NCBI GenBank assembly: GCA_029263415.1 | Contig: JAJCXN010000009.1 | Coordinates: forward strand, 1-64,000 | Length of the DNA: 64,000 nucleotides | Direction: 5' to 3' | Source of the DNA: Acidobacteriota bacterium | Lineage (GTDB): Bacteria > Acidobacteriota > Thermoanaerobaculia > Multivoradales > Multivoraceae | Part shown: piece after piece, positions 2 to 9,852 of the stretch | Layout of the letters: the number at the start of each line of letters is the position of its first letter | How positions within the stretch are numbered: position 1 is the stretch's first letter | Translations under genes and position numbers: made by a program | Notes under the pieces: generated by a model | What the model saw: only the letters and a program-made list of their open reading frames with translations | Databases searched by the model: none | What the model was told of the DNA's origin: nothing

Positions 2-502
2 GGCATGCACTGCGCTTGGCACTACGCTCAAGGACAGTGGAGAGTCAGCGGCCACTGGGACGTCCTCACCAAGGCCTACCGCTTGCGACAAACCGGCAGT
101 CGCGTCCGGCGCACTGACTACCGATCCAACGAATCGTTCGAACTCGATCCGCTGCCCTGCTGGCAGCACCTCGGTCGCGAAGAAATCCGTCAATGGGTGC
201 TCGAGCGTCTCGAACAAATCCGACAGGACTACGCAGACCTCGAGTTCCTAGGCGAACGCAAAATTCTCGCCCAGCCCCTTGAAGATCGAGCCATGAATCC
301 GAAGCGCTCGCCAGCCCCCGTCGTCCACTGCAAAGACCCAGCCCGTCGCAAAGAAATGCGTGACGCATACCGCCAGTTCGTCAGGAGCTTCTACGCCGCT
401 ACGGCGAGACTCGAGATGTTCCTGAGACCGCAGGACGATCCCTACTACTTCCCGTCCGGGTGCCACCCCCCGTTTCCATCCCCCGTGCCCGAGTCAAGCT
501 GA
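2..502 (+). CDS. Y1 (REP-associated/IS200-like) transposase, C-terminal part
   Basis: The reading frame is open to the window edge, so only the last 166 residues are visible. They are colinear with the C-terminal half of the complete transposase at 7320-8252 (reverse strand), about two thirds identical by eye. Both share the blocks HCAWHYAQ, SFELDPLPCWQHL, VLERLEQIR, DPARRKEMRDAYR and DPYYFPSGCHPP. The catalytic HUH motif and tyrosine would lie upstream of the window, so activity cannot be judged. The family makes single-strand nicks through a tyrosine at hairpin-marked sites. The gene is followed after 47 nt by a strong hairpin (550-578) and then by TGACACC repeats. The Met at position 5 is internal: the other copy reads GLHCAW here. 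Confidence 0.85.
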   Translation, partial: GMHCAWHYAQGQWRVSGHWDVLTKAYRLRQTGSRVRRTDYRSNESFELDPLPCWQHLGREEIRQWVLERLEQIRQDYADLEFLGERKILAQPLEDRAMNPKRSPAPVVHCKDPARRKEMRDAYRQFVRSFYAATARLEMFLRPQDDPYYFPSGCHPPFPSPVPESS

Positions 503-672: not shown

Positions 673-734
673 GATCCTCGAAAATCAGGACTTGGCCGCC
701 ACGCCCTCAAACAAACCTGTGACACCTTTATCTG
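673..734. repeat. Direct repeat, copy A (about 62 bp)
   Basis: This begins GATCC and ends TGACACCTTTATCTG. It matches 777-837 over its whole length with scattered substitutions; shared blocks include CTCAAACAAAC and TGTGACACCTTTATCTG. The 400-bp gap between the transposase and the next gene (503-910) contains no gene I can support and is filled by this repeat family and the hairpin at 550-578. Confidence 0.75.
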
Positions 735-880
735 GAGCTGACACCTTTATCTGGAACGAGGTCCCTAACCGACCGCGATCCCGATAATCAGAACTTCGCC
801 GACACACTCTCAAACAAACGTGTGACACCTTTATCTGAGAGTGGCTGACCCCTTCCATAACACTGACACCTTAATCTGGA
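720..880. repeat. Four TGACACCTTTATCTGGA-type units
   Basis: Units at 720-736, 739-755, 823-839 and 864-880 share TGACACCTT(T/A)ATCTG. The first two are separated by 2 bp only, and a decayed fifth unit (TGACCCCTTCCAT) may start at 846. Sequences of this TGACACC type often occur beside Y1 transposases, to my recollection, so they may be the element's target or passenger repeats. Confidence 0.7.
777..837. repeat. Direct repeat, copy B (about 61 bp)
   Basis: Second copy of the repeat at 673-734, about 104 bp further on. The last 17 bases of both copies are the same. The divergence elsewhere suggests an old duplication or independent members of a dispersed family. Confidence 0.75.
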
Positions 881-910
881 CGAACGTCCTCAATGCGTCG
901 TTCCTCCCAA

Positions 911-1270
911 TCAAACCTCAATGTTCTCATCAACAAAGAGAGCTAGAGACGGGAAGGCCTGGGGCAACTCATTACGAAGCCGTGTCGCGGTTACAGCGGG
1001 CGAAAGAACCTCGAACGTTGGCTCCAAGACCTCTTCATCGTTGTCCTCGACGCTCCAGCACATCCACCGAACCAAGACCTGGTCACCACTAGGAGATGGC
1101 TCCCACTTCGGTTCACTTGCAACGCTGACGTAGAGCCGCCCTTGTTCGAGACGCAACCGGCTCAATGCCATTCTTATCTGCTGAACGAGCGGCCCAACGG
1201 GCTCTTTGGGGTCATTTGCATCCCCACGATCTAAACTCACTTCGGCGGCCTCTTGTTCGGTGGTACCCAT
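911..1270 (-). CDS. Candidate immunity protein for the RHS-HNH toxin
   Basis: This is a small acidic protein of 119 residues from the ATG at 1270. The start overlaps the 3' end of the RHS gene (stop at 1237-1239) by 34 bp, so the two are probably translationally coupled. I do not recognise its family. It has no signal peptide or membrane segment, as expected for a cytosolic immunity protein. The frame extends upstream to 1324 but only inside the RHS gene. The basis for the call is position, size, acidity and orientation directly behind a toxin tip; there is no sequence match. An in-frame Met further in (MALSRLRLEQ) is a less likely start. Confidence 0.5.
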   Translation of the reverse strand: MGTTEQEAAEVSLDRGDANDPKEPVGPLVQQIRMALSRLRLEQGRLYVSVASEPKWEPSPSGDQVLVRWMCWSVEDNDEEVLEPTFEVLSPAVTATRLRNELPQAFPSLALFVDENIEV

Positions 1271-4200
1271 TCGGTTTTGGACGTCGTCGCGCCTAGTTTC
1301 TTCGCACCTTTTGATCTGTTGCACGAACGGCAGGCCGCGTCGAGATTCTCATCGACTGTCTCGCCCCCATTCGCATAGGCCTTGCGATGATCGATCTCGG
1401 CAGAGTTGGGACTACCCGCCTTGCGATCGAGCGGCGTGCCGCAATACACGCATCTTTCCACACCATCCTTACCGCGAGAGCGCTCAAGAGCACTTTCTCT
1501 CTGCGCTTTCGTTGGCCGCCGCGCGGTGCGTTTGGCCGCGCCCCCGACTCCTAACGCACCACCAGCTGCCTTAAGTTCCCGCCCGCTCACCGGCGAAAAC
1601 ACCTCACTCGCCGCCGACAACCCCGCCAACAGCCGTTCCCGCCCAGAAGCCTCTGAGTCAAAGACCGTCTTCACATCCGAAGCCAACCCAGCAAAAGTCG
1701 CCGCTACATCCCCGCCCTTCAGAGCAACCTTCGCGCCCTTCTTAATCAACCCCCACGGCACCTTGCCGTCCGGATCCACATTCCCAACCGGATTCCCGTA
1801 AACATACGAATACCGATTCCACGACCCCGTCATCCCCAGCTCAAAACTCCCCGAACTAGGATCAACCCCCAAAAACCTCCCATACACCGGCGAAAAGTAC
1901 CGAGCATGCATGTAATCCAAATCATCCGCCTGCGACGACCCCACCCCCAAATCCCGCTCATGCCCAGTAAACCGCATCCGGTCGCCGCCGTCCCCCGAAC
2001 CACCAGCAACAAAGTTCGCCTGCTCCCCATAAGGAAAGTACGCCCGGTAGTCCACCACGTCCCCCGCACTATCCGTCAACAACCTCGGCGTCCCAAGATG
2101 ATCCACGTGGTAGTGAACCACCTCATCCAACTCACCCGAACTCTTCGACTCACGCTCAACTGAAGCGAGCAGCGTTGAACCCCGGTACACCGTGTCCGTG
2201 GCCACCCAGGCTAGCGGCGCGCTCCCGAACGTATGCCTAATCTCCCTTAGGACCTTGTTATCGAGGTCTCGGAGGTACCACTTGTCCTCATCGGCAACAA
2301 GATCCCCGTTCGGTTGTACCTGAGTCGTCTGGTGATAACTGTAGTAGCGCTCATCGTCTGCCGTATACAGGTGAGTCCAGATCCCTGCTGCCCCATAGTC
2401 GATCTGCGTCGCCATATTGAATGAGTCATAGACGAAGCTCGCCACCGGAAGATTCGTGACGTTCCCGCGCGCATCGTACGCGGCCCCACCTACCAAGAGT
2501 CGATTGGTGTCACTGTCCGTCGGAATCAAACGACCAGGAGAACCAGTGATCTCTTCCAGGTTTCCAAACGTGTCGTAGTCATATCCCCGGTCAAGTGTAG
2601 GGCTACCCTGAATCTCAGGGTCCACCGAAACTTTCGCTTCAACCAAGCGCTGCAAACCGTCATACCGATACAGCGATTCACCAATCTGTGAAATGTTCCC
2701 AGCGCCGTCATATGAGTAGTCGCCCGAGTTCCAGGCCTCATTAAAGGTGAACTGAGTGGCGTCAGCGAGCCGCGCGGTGAACGAGGAACCGACCTGAGCG
2801 TGAAAGCCAGTTTGCAGAAGCACACTCACTCCACCAACAGATTCCAGCGTGCCTCCGGACGGAATGGCGACATCCGAGTACTCGAGCCAATTGGAAGCAT
2901 GGTGTATGGGACCAGTGCTGAAATCGAGATCCGCACCGACGTAGCTCTCCAGAACGAGGCCAACAATCTCCGAGCTGTCCGCCACCTTGATGCTTCCAGG
3001 CCTGGCCATCTCATCTCTGTCCGCCACCTGAAGCCATTGCCGATCATTCGCGTGAATGACCCTGGAAGTCTGCCCAGTTGGGAGATATCGGATCTCCGAG
3101 GCCAGCGGATTGGTTCCTCCGATGGGAGCACCAGCCTGCGTCTGCAGTCGATGATCCACACCCGTTAGATATCCATCGACGAAGGTGTTGTCGACCAGCC
3201 TCACGTCTTCATTCGAACAGAGCGTCGAATCAGATACCGGTGCCTCCAGACACTGAGGGTACGACACCTGGGCCGCCTGACCTAGGTCGTTGTACTCCCA
3301 GACCTGCCGAAACTGTGACCGCTTCGTCTCGTCGTCAGTTGTCGCACTAGGCCCCGGCGCAGCCTCAAAAAAGTCAGTCAACGTCCGCGCGCTTGGAGCG
3401 CCGCCGACACCAGCGAACTCCGTCTCCTGCCGCACTCGGACGACCAATGGCAGCGAGTTCAATTCAAAGTGATTCGTCCGCCACGCCTCCTTGACCTTGC
3501 CAAAGGCGCCTACCGCCCCACTATCGTTCTCATACACCCACGTCTTGAGCTGTTGCGGTGCATGAGGCAAGCCAAAATCACTGACCGACACAAGCCGGCC
3601 CCCATCATCGTAGTCGTAGTGCAACGTCACACCGCCGTGACTACGAGTGCCCGGGTTGCCCTTCGAATCGAACGAACCATAGTTGATGTTGGCACCCGGT
3701 GTCTCTGGGTGCTGCTCCCAGAGCAGAAACCCTCGCCGATCGTAGGAGAACGTTCGCGTTTGTGCGCCATCAACACCACTCACCGTGGCAACGCGAATCC
3801 GATCTTGATCGTCGTAGGCATAGTTCGCCTTAGTTGTCGTCGCCGCAGGGTGCTCTTCTAAGAGGTCAAGCCGACCCAGCACGTCATAGAACTCGCGTTT
3901 GTTGACAATCTCCGGAGCAGCACTTGGAAGCTGCAGCTGAATCCTGGTACTGGTGACAATCTTGCGATTGCCGGTGTAGGTGCGAGACTGCGTCAATGCG
4001 TCTGGCGTTTTGATCTGCCGAGCCCGGCCAAATGGATCGTAGGCCATGAATCGGGTGGCCTTCGATCCGGCACTGCCGAAACCCCAAACGGTCTCTCTGG
4101 TCCTTTGCCCGAGCGCGTCGTACTCGACCCTGGACTTCGCTTGTCCGTTGGGAGTTTCGATGGTCCGAAGGCGAAGACGCCCCATCGCGCTGTATGACAG

Positions 4201-6606
4201 TTCTTCTTCCGCAAGAATCGTGCCTCCGGACGACACCCCGTTCGGACGGTGTCGAACGATCGCCTTAGCCGTTGAGGTTGGACTCGACGGGTTGTGGTTC
4301 TGATAGTTGATGCTCGTCCACGCACCACCGTGAGCCGTTGATGGCTTGACCAAAACGACGCGTGAGGACTCGTCGTAGTTGTAGCTCGTCGCCAAGCCCG
4401 AGGGATCCCGCGACGTCATGACCAAACCGGTATCGGCATCGATCACATTGTCGACATGCTTGGGGAACGAGCAGGGCTGCCCCGAATCACAGTCTGGAGT
4501 CCCCTGGTACCGTGAGCTTGCCAACACCCCGCTGGAACGGGTGTGAGCGATCTCGTACTCTAGTTGCGCGGACGGAATTGAAGTCGGGCTACAAATGCTG
4601 CTAGTGCCCGTGGGCAGGTTCGCGTCGTCACCACCATAACTTTTCTCCGCTTTAACACTCCCCGCCCGAACGTCACTACCGCTCCAACGCTCGAGCACCG
4701 TAACGAGATCTTTGTTCGTAGCACCCGACCCGTTGAGTCGTCTGCTAAGGATTAGTTCACCCTGAGTGTCAAAACAGGTGAGCGTCTTGCTGGTGTAGCT
4801 CGGGACCCCGGGCTGGGTGGTCTGAGAGTAGGAGGAGGTGTTCAGCAGCCACTTGGCGTTGTTTGCAGGCACCGCCGCCTCACTGCCACAGACCGAGGTA
4901 ATGGACGAGCAGTTGTAATTGGTTGTCTGAATCCGCTGGTTGGTTCCCTCGTCGAAGTTGCCAACGGTTTCCTCCTCGCGGTAGTGACCGAGGCCATCCC
5001 AATAGTCGCGAAGAACGTCTATCCGTTTGTTGCTGTCATCGTGGAAGACCGTCCGCCGCTTGAGCTCACGGCGGTTGTAGTTACCGACGTTGTACGAGTT
5101 GTCCGAACCAGCCTCATTGAACTCGTCGAAATCGTGTTCGTAAGCGACGTAGGTCGAGCGAACAAGCTCGCAGGAGAAGACGGTCGGGCAGTCGTAGACA
5201 CGCGAAGATAGAAACCAACCCGCGTAGTCATTCAACTCGGCAACCCTAGTGAACGGCAACGCGTGGTCCTTCCTGGTGGTGAGATTCCCAGACGGGTTGT
5301 TGCCTTGCCACATTGAAAAATAGTGATGCCGCTGATGACCGATCGGATCGGTCACGATCGTCTTTGCGTACTCCCAAGCCGACGAGTTCCCGTTGTCTCC
5401 GGCAAGGCAGCCATTCTGATTCCCTACCTCGCCGATGAAGTCTTGTTCATAGGTCCACGTATCAATGTCGTTCCCGCGAGTGAGCGTCTTGGTGCTGACA
5501 CCAAGTGATGTCGAAAAGAGGCGCGGGATGTCTTGGGTACTCGGAGGACCACCCGTGTGCCCCTCATTGCCGCTGCATGGCTTCGCGAACCTGTACTCAC
5601 CGTAGTTGTAGGAGCTGGTTGCGCCGGTCGGAATCCGCATGCTCGCGAGCGTTCCATTGCTGCAGTTGCCAACGCCACCGTCGTTGTAGGTGAAGTCGTA
5701 GCTCGTGTCGTTTGGAAGGGAGATCGACTCGAGACGTCGAACATTGGCCTGCGTCGGCTGAACAGGATCCGAATGGATGCAGAGTGGTTTCTCAAAGGTT
5801 GTGTCGGGCGCGTACGTGAGGTCAAAGGTCGTGCTGCCGCCGTTGAAGGTGGGTAGCTGGACGCTAGTGATGTACGGGCGGCCAGCGAACGTGTTGTAGT
5901 TGACGACATACGAGCGACCAAAGCGGTCACTGATCTCCCAGCGAGATCCGGGGTACGCAACGTTCAGAATGCTGTTGCCATGCGGGTCGCGCATGCTGGT
6001 CAGCCGACCGCTACCATCAAACCGGTGGACTTGCCCATCGGGGAAATGCACCTCAGGCGCTGAACCGTGCTTGATTCGCAGATAGGAGCTGTCTCTCGTG
6101 AACCCAAAACCGGATCCCGAACTCTGATTTGCCCGCAGATCGGCCTTGAACGAGTGCTCGGCTCCGTCCGGAGAGACGTAGATCCAATCTGCAGTTTCGT
6201 TGCCGGGCGAGGTCGGAGGCTGCAGTCGACCGAGATTGAGCGACCAACCAATTCCAGCGTTTTCGAACGGGTTGAGCTGAGCCACCGTGGTGTAAGTGAG
6301 ATACGGATCACCCGTGTTCTCGTCGATCTCCTGATCCCAAACCTTGGAGTTGTAGGTGAGTTTCAGCTGAAAGGTCCGGTCTCCACCGAGCGGATAGGCC
6401 TGACCAATTGGGATCGCGATGCTCAGGTTCCCGTTGAACAGGTTCACCTGATCAAGATCGCCGAGGTCGTACAACCGATTCTCGTTAAACCCACGTTCAA
6501 AGCGCGGGTGTTGCTGCTGCGCAAATGCGGAAGCTGCAAGCAGGACTCCGCTTGCAATGATGAGAGCAAAGCGGAGGTTGGGCAGTGATCTGATGTTGGC
6601 ACTCAT
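1237..6606 (-). CDS. Exported RHS/YD-repeat protein with C-terminal HNH nuclease
   Basis: The product has 1789 residues. The start at 6606 is preceded by GGAGG and begins MSANIRSLPNLR, followed by a Sec signal peptide ending near ASAFAQQQ. The body has RHS/YD repeats (for example YDYDDGGRL, YDPFGRARQI, YRYDGLQRLVEA). A segment reading LLQTGFHAQVGSSFTA resembles a 3-coathanger repeat. The conserved RHS-core end is DYMHARYFSPVYGRFLGVDP, followed by NRYSYVYGNPVGNVDPDG. The variable tip of 174 residues ends in an HNH/treble-clef nuclease: CVYC near residue 1719, EIDH near 1737, Asn-containing DENL, then CRSCNRSKG. No PAAR or type VI adaptor domain is seen, so Sec export is the likely first step. 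The tip should cut DNA in a target cell; the following small gene probably gives self-protection. The region sits between two transposase copies. Confidence 0.85.
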   Translation of the reverse strand: MSANIRSLPNLRFALIIASGVLLAASAFAQQQHPRFERGFNENRLYDLGDLDQVNLFNGNLSIAIPIGQAYPLGGDRTFQLKLTYNSKVWDQEIDENTGDPYLTYTTVAQLNPFENAGIGWSLNLGRLQPPTSPGNETADWIYVSPDGAEHSFKADLRANQSSGSGFGFTRDSSYLRIKHGSAPEVHFPDGQVHRFDGSGRLTSMRDPHGNSILNVAYPGSRWEISDRFGRSYVVNYNTFAGRPYITSVQLPTFNGGSTTFDLTYAPDTTFEKPLCIHSDPVQPTQANVRRLESISLPNDTSYDFTYNDGGVGNCSNGTLASMRIPTGATSSYNYGEYRFAKPCSGNEGHTGGPPSTQDIPRLFSTSLGVSTKTLTRGNDIDTWTYEQDFIGEVGNQNGCLAGDNGNSSAWEYAKTIVTDPIGHQRHHYFSMWQGNNPSGNLTTRKDHALPFTRVAELNDYAGWFLSSRVYDCPTVFSCELVRSTYVAYEHDFDEFNEAGSDNSYNVGNYNRRELKRRTVFHDDSNKRIDVLRDYWDGLGHYREEETVGNFDEGTNQRIQTTNYNCSSITSVCGSEAAVPANNAKWLLNTSSYSQTTQPGVPSYTSKTLTCFDTQGELILSRRLNGSGATNKDLVTVLERWSGSDVRAGSVKAEKSYGGDDANLPTGTSSICSPTSIPSAQLEYEIAHTRSSGVLASSRYQGTPDCDSGQPCSFPKHVDNVIDADTGLVMTSRDPSGLATSYNYDESSRVVLVKPSTAHGGAWTSINYQNHNPSSPTSTAKAIVRHRPNGVSSGGTILAEEELSYSAMGRLRLRTIETPNGQAKSRVEYDALGQRTRETVWGFGSAGSKATRFMAYDPFGRARQIKTPDALTQSRTYTGNRKIVTSTRIQLQLPSAAPEIVNKREFYDVLGRLDLLEEHPAATTTKANYAYDDQDRIRVATVSGVDGAQTRTFSYDRRGFLLWEQHPETPGANINYGSFDSKGNPGTRSHGGVTLHYDYDDGGRLVSVSDFGLPHAPQQLKTWVYENDSGAVGAFGKVKEAWRTNHFELNSLPLVVRVRQETEFAGVGGAPSARTLTDFFEAAPGPSATTDDETKRSQFRQVWEYNDLGQAAQVSYPQCLEAPVSDSTLCSNEDVRLVDNTFVDGYLTGVDHRLQTQAGAPIGGTNPLASEIRYLPTGQTSRVIHANDRQWLQVADRDEMARPGSIKVADSSEIVGLVLESYVGADLDFSTGPIHHASNWLEYSDVAIPSGGTLESVGGVSVLLQTGFHAQVGSSFTARLADATQFTFNEAWNSGDYSYDGAGNISQIGESLYRYDGLQRLVEAKVSVDPEIQGSPTLDRGYDYDTFGNLEEITGSPGRLIPTDSDTNRLLVGGAAYDARGNVTNLPVASFVYDSFNMATQIDYGAAGIWTHLYTADDERYYSYHQTTQVQPNGDLVADEDKWYLRDLDNKVLREIRHTFGSAPLAWVATDTVYRGSTLLASVERESKSSGELDEVVHYHVDHLGTPRLLTDSAGDVVDYRAYFPYGEQANFVAGGSGDGGDRMRFTGHERDLGVGSSQADDLDYMHARYFSPVYGRFLGVDPSSGSFELGMTGSWNRYSYVYGNPVGNVDPDGKVPWGLIKKGAKVALKGGDVAATFAGLASDVKTVFDSEASGRERLLAGLSAASEVFSPVSGRELKAAGGALGVGGAAKRTARRPTKAQRESALERSRGKDGVERCVYCGTPLDRKAGSPNSAEIDHRKAYANGGETVDENLDAACRSCNRSKGAKKLGATTSKTEWVPPNKRPPK

Positions 6607-6610
6607 CGGG

Positions 6611-7039
6611 CTAGCCCTCCATCTTGGCCGCATAGAACGTCAGATTCCGATGGTCAACCGTCAGGATCAGATCTCCGCTTTTGATCTCGAAAGGCTGAGC
6701 ACCCCTCGGCTGCCCAAGATCCACTTCATCTAGGCGATCGTTGTCTGAAGCGGGCGCGAACCCGCCGACGGTCAGTGTGATGGAACCATCCAAGAGACCG
6801 TTCTCGTCTTGAAGCGTGCCGTCTTCCGAACGCCGGTGCCAGATCCCTGATCCCGGACGCACGAGCCAAACGTATGCCTGGCGCAAGGGAACAATGAGTC
6901 CATCCACTTCTTGCTGAGTGTTGACTCGCAGTCCGGAAGATGGGAACGGGATCTCCATGACCTGAGGGGAGTTTCCCGTTTGGATAGCAAACTCGCCGTT
7001 GAGCAAGTTCACGGCTGCGAACACGCTGAACCCCGACAC
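6611..7039 (-). CDS. Small RHS-associated protein, function unknown
   Basis: The 142-residue frame starts at GTG 7039 and ends 4 bp before the RHS start codon, so it is probably co-transcribed. I do not recognise a family. Residues near the N-terminus read AVNLLNGEFAIQ, resembling QVNLFNGNLSIA near the mature N-terminus of the RHS protein downstream. The frame stays open upstream to about 7123 without an ATG, so the true start is uncertain and the ORF may be the remnant of a longer gene. No signal peptide is evident from the GTG. It could be a chaperone or plug partner of the RHS shell, or a decayed RHS N-terminus. Confidence 0.45.
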   Translation of the reverse strand: MSGFSVFAAVNLLNGEFAIQTGNSPQVMEIPFPSSGLRVNTQQEVDGLIVPLRQAYVWLVRPGSGIWHRRSEDGTLQDENGLLDGSITLTVGGFAPASDNDRLDEVDLGQPRGAQPFEIKSGDLILTVDHRNLTFYAAKMEG

Positions 7040-7319: not shown

Positions 7320-8252
7320 TCAGGTGAACTCGTGAACCGCGGGCGGCAATGGTGGGTGGCACCCAGATGGGAAGTAGTAGGGATCTTCCTGCGGCAGGAG
7401 GAATCGCTCGAGCCGTGCTGCGGCAGCAAGGAATCTCTTGACGAACTCGCGGTAGGCGTCTCGCATCTCTTTGCGCCGTGCCGGATCGTTGCAGTGGACG
7501 TTTGGTGCTGGTGTTCGTTTTGGACCTGCCGCTTGGTCTTCGATGTTTTGGGCGAGGATCCTCCTTGTGCCGAGGAATTTGTTTCCTTTGAAGGCTTCGC
7601 GGATCTGTTCCAGTCGCTCGAGCACGTACTGACGGATGGCGTTCGAGTCGAGGTGTTGCCAACAGGGAAGCGGGTCGAGTTCGAAGGACTCCGCCGATCG
7701 ATAGTCGTTCTGGCGGACTGGTTTGCCGGCATTGCTGAGGCGATAGGACTTGGTGAGATCGTCCCAGTGGCCGGTGACTGCCCATTGGTTCTGGGCGTAG
7801 TGCCATGCGCAATGAAGACCTGGCCATTCCGTGGGGCATCGGACCAGTGATTCCTTGGTGCCGTGGCGAAGGACGTAGTCAAAACGTGATAGCAGGCTTG
7901 CCTGGTCTCGATTGATCTCAATGCTTCGGTATCGGCGTTGCCAAAATTTCCCGCGCCAACCGATGTGGCGACCGACCTTGCGTGCGATGTTTGACATCAC
8001 GTACTGCATGAAACGCGACTGCATCTTGACGCCGTCGATGCTCAGGATGAGGTGAAAGTGCGTCGACATGAAAACGTGTGCGTGAATCTCAACGCCGTAG
8101 CGTTTCTTGGCTCTCGCCAACACGCCAGCAATGATGCTGTTGACGTGGGAATCTGGCTTGAGCAGAAAGCGGTTCTGCAGCGTGGTCGCGGTGATCTCGA
8201 CGGTACTCTTGCCGCCTTCTTGGGCGCCCAGGGCGAAACGCAGTGGCTGCAC
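7320..8252 (-). CDS. Y1 (REP-associated/IS200-like) transposase, complete
   Basis: The product has 310 residues from the GTG at 8252. The open frame continues upstream but only inside comM, so the first start codon after the comM stop was chosen. The HUH motif is THFHLIL (His65, His67), and the nucleophile is probably Tyr84 in MQYVMSNIARKVGR, followed by the family block GWRGKFWQRRY. The enzyme is a single-strand HUH transposase of the REP-associated type. It starts 10 bp after comM on the same strand. The C-terminal half is a diverged copy of the protein at the window start. Terminal inverted repeats are neither expected for this family nor seen. Confidence 0.85.
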   Translation of the reverse strand: MQPLRFALGAQEGGKSTVEITATTLQNRFLLKPDSHVNSIIAGVLARAKKRYGVEIHAHVFMSTHFHLILSIDGVKMQSRFMQYVMSNIARKVGRHIGWRGKFWQRRYRSIEINRDQASLLSRFDYVLRHGTKESLVRCPTEWPGLHCAWHYAQNQWAVTGHWDDLTKSYRLSNAGKPVRQNDYRSAESFELDPLPCWQHLDSNAIRQYVLERLEQIREAFKGNKFLGTRRILAQNIEDQAAGPKRTPAPNVHCNDPARRKEMRDAYREFVKRFLAAAARLERFLLPQEDPYYFPSGCHPPLPPAVHEFT

Positions 8253-8262
8253 AGTCGAGCCT

Positions 8263-9852
8263 CTAGTCTTGTGTAGCGGGGACGGTCTGCGCAGGACCTT
8301 TGCTGCGTGTCTTCGGCGCCGGATCAATCTTCTGCTGATCGAACATGCGGAACTGCAGCGCTTCTGCGAGATGCGAGACTTGCGGCACTTCGACCTCAGC
8401 GAGGTCCGCGATGGTTCTGGTGACGCGCAGGATCCGATGCACTGATCGCAGTGACAGGCCGAAGCGGTCGTACGCGCGCTCCAATGTCGCTCGCACCTTC
8501 TTGTCCATCGCTTCTGTATCGAGTTCTGTGCCACTCAACTGCGACGCCAGTTTTCCGTCGCGTGCCAACTGGATGTCTCGCACCGACTCAACCCGGGTCC
8601 GCACAACGGCACTCGATTCGCCAGGCTCGGTGCGCCGGTAGTCCTCAAGGTCCACGCGTGGAACTTCTACACGCAGGTCGATCCGGTCCAACAACGGCCC
8701 CGACAACCGCGCTTCATAGTTCTCCAACCGAGACGGCGAGCATCGGCAGTCATGCCTGAGATCTCCAAGGAACCCGCAGGGACAGGGATTAGCTGCCGCC
8801 ACCAGCGCAAAACGGGCGGGAAAGGAGAGCTGGGCTCGCGCGCGCGAGATGTGGATCATGCCTTCCTCCAAGGGCTGCCTGAGGGATTCGAGCGCGGCCC
8901 GATTGAACTCAGGTAGTTCATCAAGGAAGAGGACACCGCAGTGAGCCAGACTGACCTCGCCTGGTTTGGGAACGCCGCCACCGCCAATCAGGCCGGGAGT
9001 GCTGACGCTCGAATGCGGCGAGCGGAAGGGGCGGGTTCTGATCAGGGCGTTGTGCACGTTGAACGCGCCGCTGCTAGTCATAGTGCCAGCTGCGCTGTGC
9101 ACACGGGTCACTTCTAGTGATTCTCGGTGAGTGAGCGGCGGCAGGATTCCAGGAAGGCATCGCGCGAGCATGGTCTTGCCGGTTCCTGGAGGACCGTTCA
9201 TCAGTAGGTTGTGACCACCTGCAGCGGCGATTTCGAGCGCCCGTCGCGGAAGCGCACAGCCCTTGACTTCAGCGAGGTCGATGGTGGGCACTGGTGCGTC
9301 TTGATCGTTGAGAACGGCGCGGGCAGGGTCGATGCGTTCGAGACCAAGAATGTGCTGGACTGCATCGCTCAAGGTGTTGACGGGGATCACCCGCAACGTT
9401 GGTGACAGTGCGGCTGCTTGAGTGGCAACACCGGCCGGAAGCAAGAGCTCTTTGACTCTTTCTCGCCGTGCGAGTTCGGCGATCGCGAGGCTGCCGCGCA
9501 CGGGCCTTAACGTTCCGTCTAGCGAGAGTTCACCGCAGACCAATAGCCGCTCGAGCCGTTCCGCGGGTAGCGCTTCGTGCCCAGCGAGGAGAGTCAGAGC
9601 GATCGCAAGGTCGAGGTAGTTGCCTTCCTTTTTCAGATCTGCCGGTGCGAGATTGATGACGACGCCGCGTGGTTTGATGGAGAAGCCAGAGTTATGGATC
9701 GCGGCACGGACTCGATCGCGACTCTCTTTCACGGCTGCGTCCGGGAGTCCGACCAGCTGGAGGTGGGGAAGCCCTTTGTGTACGTCAACTTCCACTTCGA
9801 CGGGCAGGGCGTCAATGCCCCAGGGAGTCGCGGCGAGTGTTCTGGCAAGCAT
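8263..9852 (-). CDS. comM: ComM/YifB family AAA+ ATPase (Mg chelatase-like)
   Basis: The 529-residue product has the three-part YifB layout: an N-terminal Lon-protease-like fold domain (about 1-170), an AAA+ module with Walker A GPPGTGKT at 220-227 and Walker B VLFLDELPEF, and a C-terminal Mg-chelatase-like domain. A Cys-rich insert (NPCPCGFLGD...CRC) is typical. In transformable bacteria ComM is a hexameric helicase that extends branch migration during integration of incoming DNA. It stands alone between thyA (divergent) and the transposase. Length and start (MLARTLAATPWGIDA) match the family. Confidence 0.93.
   Translation of the reverse strand: MLARTLAATPWGIDALPVEVEVDVHKGLPHLQLVGLPDAAVKESRDRVRAAIHNSGFSIKPRGVVINLAPADLKKEGNYLDLAIALTLLAGHEALPAERLERLLVCGELSLDGTLRPVRGSLAIAELARRERVKELLLPAGVATQAAALSPTLRVIPVNTLSDAVQHILGLERIDPARAVLNDQDAPVPTIDLAEVKGCALPRRALEIAAAGGHNLLMNGPPGTGKTMLARCLPGILPPLTHRESLEVTRVHSAAGTMTSSGAFNVHNALIRTRPFRSPHSSVSTPGLIGGGGVPKPGEVSLAHCGVLFLDELPEFNRAALESLRQPLEEGMIHISRARAQLSFPARFALVAAANPCPCGFLGDLRHDCRCSPSRLENYEARLSGPLLDRIDLRVEVPRVDLEDYRRTEPGESSAVVRTRVESVRDIQLARDGKLASQLSGTELDTEAMDKKVRATLERAYDRFGLSLRSVHRILRVTRTIADLAEVEVPQVSHLAEALQFRMFDQQKIDPAPKTRSKGPAQTVPATQD

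Follow-up and report, generated by a model that had tools for sequence, protein, structure and literature searches.

A Sec-exported RHS protein with an HNH nuclease tip and a co-inherited candidate immunity gene in an Acidobacteriota genome

Does the small gene directly behind a nuclease-tipped RHS gene on contig JAJCXN010000009.1 (Acidobacteriota bacterium, assembly GCA_029263415.1) encode the antidote to that nuclease, and by which route could such a toxin leave the cell? We analysed positions 1–64,000 of this contig, 64,000 nucleotides in all (hereafter the window), where the RHS gene (minus strand, 6606 to 1237) forms a single intact open frame and is overlapped by 34 bp by a small open reading frame (ORF) on the same strand (911–1270, ATG start, 119 amino acids (aa), isoelectric point (pI) 4.3). 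We consider it probable (roughly 85%) that the locus is a polymorphic RHS toxin–immunity system working by the mechanism proposed below, in which the small gene, judged from its sequence and surroundings, very probably encodes the antidote. The small protein would represent an immunity family that the searched libraries lack; systems of this kind are themselves standard and well known. The features of polymorphic toxins found here are RHS/YD repeats followed by an RHS core, a common carrier with variable tips, and a downstream gene linked to the tip.

The C-terminal part of the RHS protein consists of two units. The RHS-associated core (TIGR03696, 1765–2040, minus strand) ends with the motif VDP...GNPVGNVDPDG, and exactly 174 residues follow DPDGK up to the end of the protein, as counted in the initial annotation. 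That annotation took all 174 residues for the tip, which holds for the last ~92 (1240–1515, minus strand), recognized correctly as an HNH nuclease, and fails for the first ~82 (GLIKKGAKVALKGGDVAATFAG...SEVFSPVS; 1516–1764, minus strand), which form a linker common to RHS proteins with other tips. The tip exhibits the pattern CxxC...EIDH...NL...CRSCN with its zinc-binding CxxC pairs, has a pI of 9.5 and is identified by the Pfam HNH model (PF01844; 38.9 bits against a cut-off of 21.4, E-value 9.6e-10, residues 1728–1777, window 1303–1452). Searches with the tip returned generic HNH matches only from plasmids and generic phage HNH endonucleases only, mostly 34–41% identical, from phages; neither the tip nor the small protein had a match in viral contigs. 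The PADLOC matches, to PtuB, were weak (E-values 0.002–0.02) and confined to the HNH motif, and an assignment of the tip as PtuB was rejected.

Only two further loci yielded relatives of the small protein, each time immediately after a tip of this kind. In 'Acidobacteria bacterium isolate LB_ACB_1' (contig QQVD01000007.1), which belongs to the window's family and to another genus, a 5'-truncated RHS gene (469 aa) has this linker and tip as well and is overlapped by 40 bp by the small gene that follows. In Polyangium fumosum DSM 14668 (Myxococcota) the tip forms the C-terminus of a 514-aa protein that lacks RHS repeats, shows a lipobox-like LLGC close to the N-terminus, and is lipoprotein-like and non-homologous to the RHS carrier; here the small gene begins 6 bp past the stop of the carrier gene. 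Tip and adjoining small gene thus occur together in 3 of the 3 genomes with this HNH tip, at spacings of a 34-bp overlap, a 40-bp overlap and a 6-bp gap, and the partnership, which the initial annotation had proposed from position, is now supported by co-inheritance over genera, phyla and carriers, the small ORF being conserved beside the tip in both relatives (2/2), one of another genus and one of another phylum with a non-homologous carrier. The tips are 55% (window and LB_ACB_1), 73% (window and Polyangium) and 55% (LB_ACB_1 and Polyangium) identical, the small proteins 48%, 45% and 43% in the same order. The higher identity of the window tip to the tip from another phylum (Polyangium) than to the one from its own family (LB_ACB_1) suggests horizontal movement. 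Profile searches revealed no further copy of the small protein in 60 related genomes, 72 of the order, 396 of the phylum and 282 of Myxococcota (overlapping sets, ~700 distinct genomes), and a pattern scan of 84,980 species returned only LB_ACB_1 and Polyangium fumosum. In the large genome samples a part of the first-look candidates was scored, and the species scan requires one of two short patterns, so that distant relatives may be missed.

Or could the RHS protein belong to the cell surface or the matrix and carry a degenerate nuclease, with the small gene encoding a chaperone or accessory protein rather than an antidote? Accessory genes do occur in some toxin loci, but the HNH residues are intact and under constraint: the C, D, H and N residues are invariant in the three tip sequences, and CxxC, EIDH, NL and CRSCN are kept in 3/3 bar conservative changes. 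Moreover, other tips on this linker are not followed by the small gene, which does follow this tip on another scaffold, and we regard the explanation as quite unlikely. The linker is found in five RHS genes of the order (those of the window and LB_ACB_1, two in genome G043 and one in genome G060), which carry four types of tips, each with its own small ORF at most 13 bp away or overlapping. The three other tips, in G043 and G060, are accompanied by ORFs of 87, 138 and 74 aa. Because the same linker with other tips is followed by different small ORFs, the small gene tracks the tip rather than the scaffold; the same pair is also found on a non-RHS scaffold in Polyangium. The 74-aa protein (G060, locus L034, 906–1130, minus strand) is an S1 RNA-binding domain (Pfam E-value 7.5e-7), an unusual candidate for an immunity protein.

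The small ORF encodes a real, constrained protein, as shown by the pairwise differences at codon positions 1/2/3 (0.46/0.34/0.69, 0.47/0.39/0.66 and 0.40/0.37/0.72). An alternative GTG at 1324 would extend it to 137 aa. The initial annotation described it as a small acidic protein of no known family, overlapping the RHS gene by 34 bp, and the searches agree: the window protein has no Pfam, NCBIfam or PADLOC match at E ≤ 1, its two relatives have no match to known immunity families at E ≤ 0.1, a search of PDB sequences gave one match at chance level, and plasmids gave none. An acidic immunity protein and a basic nuclease tip are the usual pairing; the small protein of LB_ACB_1, however, has a pI of 6.2 against 4.3 in the window, so that charge alone is weak evidence for the pairing.

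Several points weigh against a toxin–immunity system. The data comprise only three pairs of tip and small gene, and both the toxicity of the tip and the protection by the small protein are predicted here from the genes. The AlphaFold2 model of the tip, built from three sequences, is unusable (predicted local distance difference test (pLDDT) 42) and was not interpreted, and for the model of the small protein, a helix-sheet-helix fold of moderate confidence (pLDDT 68), Foldseek returned nothing from the PDB below an E-value of 0.09 and no known immunity fold. The best VIA-align score for the latter model (Z 4.5, transposase/RNase H-like and ribosomal chains) was taken as chance.

How would the toxin leave the cell? 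The RHS ORF extends over 1237–6633 (minus strand), i.e. 1798 aa from the first ATG at 6633 and 1789 aa from the start at 6606, and the latter, the start given in the initial annotation, is preferred because GGAGG lies 9 nt upstream of it and because it yields a leader of the signal peptidase I type (MSANIRSLPNLRFALIIASGVLLAASAFA followed by QQ; 6520–6606, minus strand), with the predicted cleavage between AFA and Q. Read by eye, this leader has the shape of a Sec signal, in agreement with the N-terminal signal peptide of the initial annotation, and two homologues (L019 and L020) have leaders of the same kind. The remaining part is identified by Pfam as RHS_repeat (2.7e-14) and RHS (3.4e-7) and by NCBIfam as Rhs_assc_core (4.1e-14), whose end coincides with the DPDG junction. 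NCBIfam also reports GCX_COOH ('3-coathanger stack') barely over its cut-off within the RHS repeats (residues 1253–1291, window ~2761–2877, minus strand), an odd position for a C-terminal domain.

Many nuclease-tipped RHS toxins, such as TseI (PMC7170923), are delivered by the type VI secretion system (T6SS), and one could be encoded elsewhere in this genome. However, the protein has a Sec signal peptide in place of PAAR or VgrG, and neither of these nor any other type VI domain was found in it with Pfam and NCBIfam, as the initial annotation had noted for PAAR and type VI adaptors; that observation is strengthened by the absence of the sheath protein TssC/VipB from the 99%-complete genome (E. 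coli control positive; no separate search for VgrG or Hcp was made). With neither TssC nor PAAR, the type VI route is disfavoured, and we rejected it as very improbable. Delivery presumably proceeds by Sec and a further outer-membrane step.

Another explanation is that the tip works in the cytoplasm of its own lineage, as a toxin–antitoxin-like or anti-phage module, the signal peptide being incidental. Classical HNH domains are nearest in sequence to phage and plasmid HNH endonucleases and, weakly, to PtuB, and an orphan RHS gene with toxin–antitoxin behaviour has been reported (PMC7043789). Yet the product of the window gene is an exported RHS protein of full length, an export/lipobox N-terminus is also present in the Polyangium copy, and the PADLOC matches mentioned above concern the HNH motif only, which makes a cytoplasmic role unlikely.

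We therefore return to the exported toxin. The order of the domains, the intact HNH motif and the export signal were observed, as were the coupling of tip and small gene, their co-inheritance and the variety of tips on a common linker; these are consistent with a mechanism of which we infer the RHS shell, self-cleavage, DNA cutting, binding and protection. The RHS protein would be exported via Sec, and its repeats would build a closed shell, while the core end (VDP...VDPDG) would probably cleave itself and free the linker with the HNH tip; release is likely by analogy, because VDP...GNPVGNVDPDG resembles TPDP...VDPLGL of TseI and TccC3 (PMC7170923). The freed tip may enter a neighbouring cell and cut DNA there, and the 119-aa protein would remain in the cytoplasm, bind the tip and shield the producing cell and its kin. 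The tip may travel with the immunity gene as one cassette among RHS genes and also onto a lipoprotein-like carrier.

Comparison with known systems places the locus in familiar company. Sec-exported RHS toxins are known in outline (PMC3482391, Table 1): Zhang et al. 2012 listed Sec/T2SS (type II secretion system) export, RHS repeats, a C-terminal HNH tip and an adjacent immunity gene, for Acidobacteria too, and the window shares these features with their Tox-HNH RHS systems. The partners listed there for Tox-HNH are Imm-SUKH, Imm-SuFu and Imm14, 18, 24, 33 and 73; none was recognized in the window protein, as it matches no Pfam model. The locus also resembles TseI–TsiI from Aeromonas dhakensis (PMC7170923) in the RHS shell, the HNH/EndoVII tip, the aspartyl self-cleavage signature and the immunity gene directly 3'; however, TseI acts as a T6SS effector together with VgrG/chaperone partners and has a tip of the PF15657 type, whereas the window protein has a signal peptide and a classical zinc-type HNH domain, in a genome without TssC. 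Bacterial teneurin-like proteins, known also from Acidobacteriota and Myxococcota, are another class of exported YD-shell proteins, whose toxic C-termini vary and which have small immunity genes downstream (PMC13018210). Their superfold comprises FN-plug, NHL and YD-shell; of these parts Pfam identified only RHS/YD in the window protein. The Polyangium carrier is similar to the SitA lipoprotein toxins of myxobacteria (PMC5562445) in its lipobox-type N-terminus, nuclease C-terminus and immunity gene behind; this is a resemblance only, as it has no match to a SitA-named NCBIfam model and no sitB-like overlapping gene was seen, and its assignment as SitA, supported by no model, was rejected.

A second RHS cassette of the same genome, on contig C22, bears on how tips may be exchanged. 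It comprises, in coordinates of locus L046, a truncated RHS end (4140–1255) with a HEFGH (HExxH metallopeptidase-like) tip and, behind it, a 262-aa gene (1196–408) that differs from the small gene of the window. The similarity of C22 DNA to the window extends to the DPDG junction (window 1766–1927, 75%) and resumes past the small gene, in the TGACACCTTTATCTGG repeat (694–755, 89%) and at a RAYT gene's 3' end (378–588, 79%), while the tip and small gene between these homology blocks are without match; a tip swap by recombination would predict such a layout, with the cassette between two blocks of homology. The truncated C22 cassette has an identical 39-bp direct repeat at both ends (L046 317–355 and 3965–4003), and in LB_ACB_1 a diverged RAYT gene also lies behind the small gene. 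Both the C22 cassette and the truncated gene of LB_ACB_1 with its tip and small gene are like orphan rhs-CT/rhsI modules (PMC3150448, PMC3967940), with the difference that here repeats near RAYT genes adjoin the cassette. A causal role of RAYT or the repeats in tip exchange is our conjecture.

In the window, the TGACACCTTTATCTGG repeats (679–889, plus strand) adjoin the small gene, which is convergent with a RAYT-like transposase gene of which the contig start leaves only the 3' part (5–502, plus strand). A second RAYT-like gene (7320–8534, minus strand) lies on the other side, so that the two flank the RHS locus in inverted orientation; they are 71–75% complementary over ~480 nt. The genome holds 6 copies of TGACACCTTTATCTGG, in one orientation (window 679–889, C22:387, C33:205, C47:2926 and C52:48), all but one less than 800 bp from a contig start, and 3/5 contigs with the repeat have RAYT sequence at a contig end; it is a RAYT-linked repeat that probably breaks the assembly. 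Upstream of the RHS gene, a 142-aa ORF of no family (6611–7039, minus strand), a possible leader gene, stops 4 bp short of the RHS start and contains the RHS ribosome-binding site, which makes translational coupling possible; the surroundings of the other RHS genes examined yielded no similar ORF. Contig C51 of the same genome encodes a full-length paralogue of the window RHS protein (L039, 3364–9374; 27% identity over ~1,740 aligned positions) with a different tip. It is followed by a gene for a lipoprotein-like protein, which suggests that this tip acts in the periplasm.

That all of the following would hold jointly, namely a new HNH-specific immunity family, movement of the two-gene cassette between an RHS carrier in Acidobacteriota and a lipoprotein carrier in Myxococcota, T6SS-independent delivery by Sec plus a surface step, and tip exchange via RAYT repeats, is a tentative and rather doubtful proposition. 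The locus adds one immunity family that is absent from the searched libraries and has a clear partner, and is thus directly testable; it represents a case of one toxin–immunity cassette used in two phyla by export carriers that are unrelated to each other, and it belongs to a set of RHS toxins exported by Sec in a genome that lacks a T6SS sheath gene.
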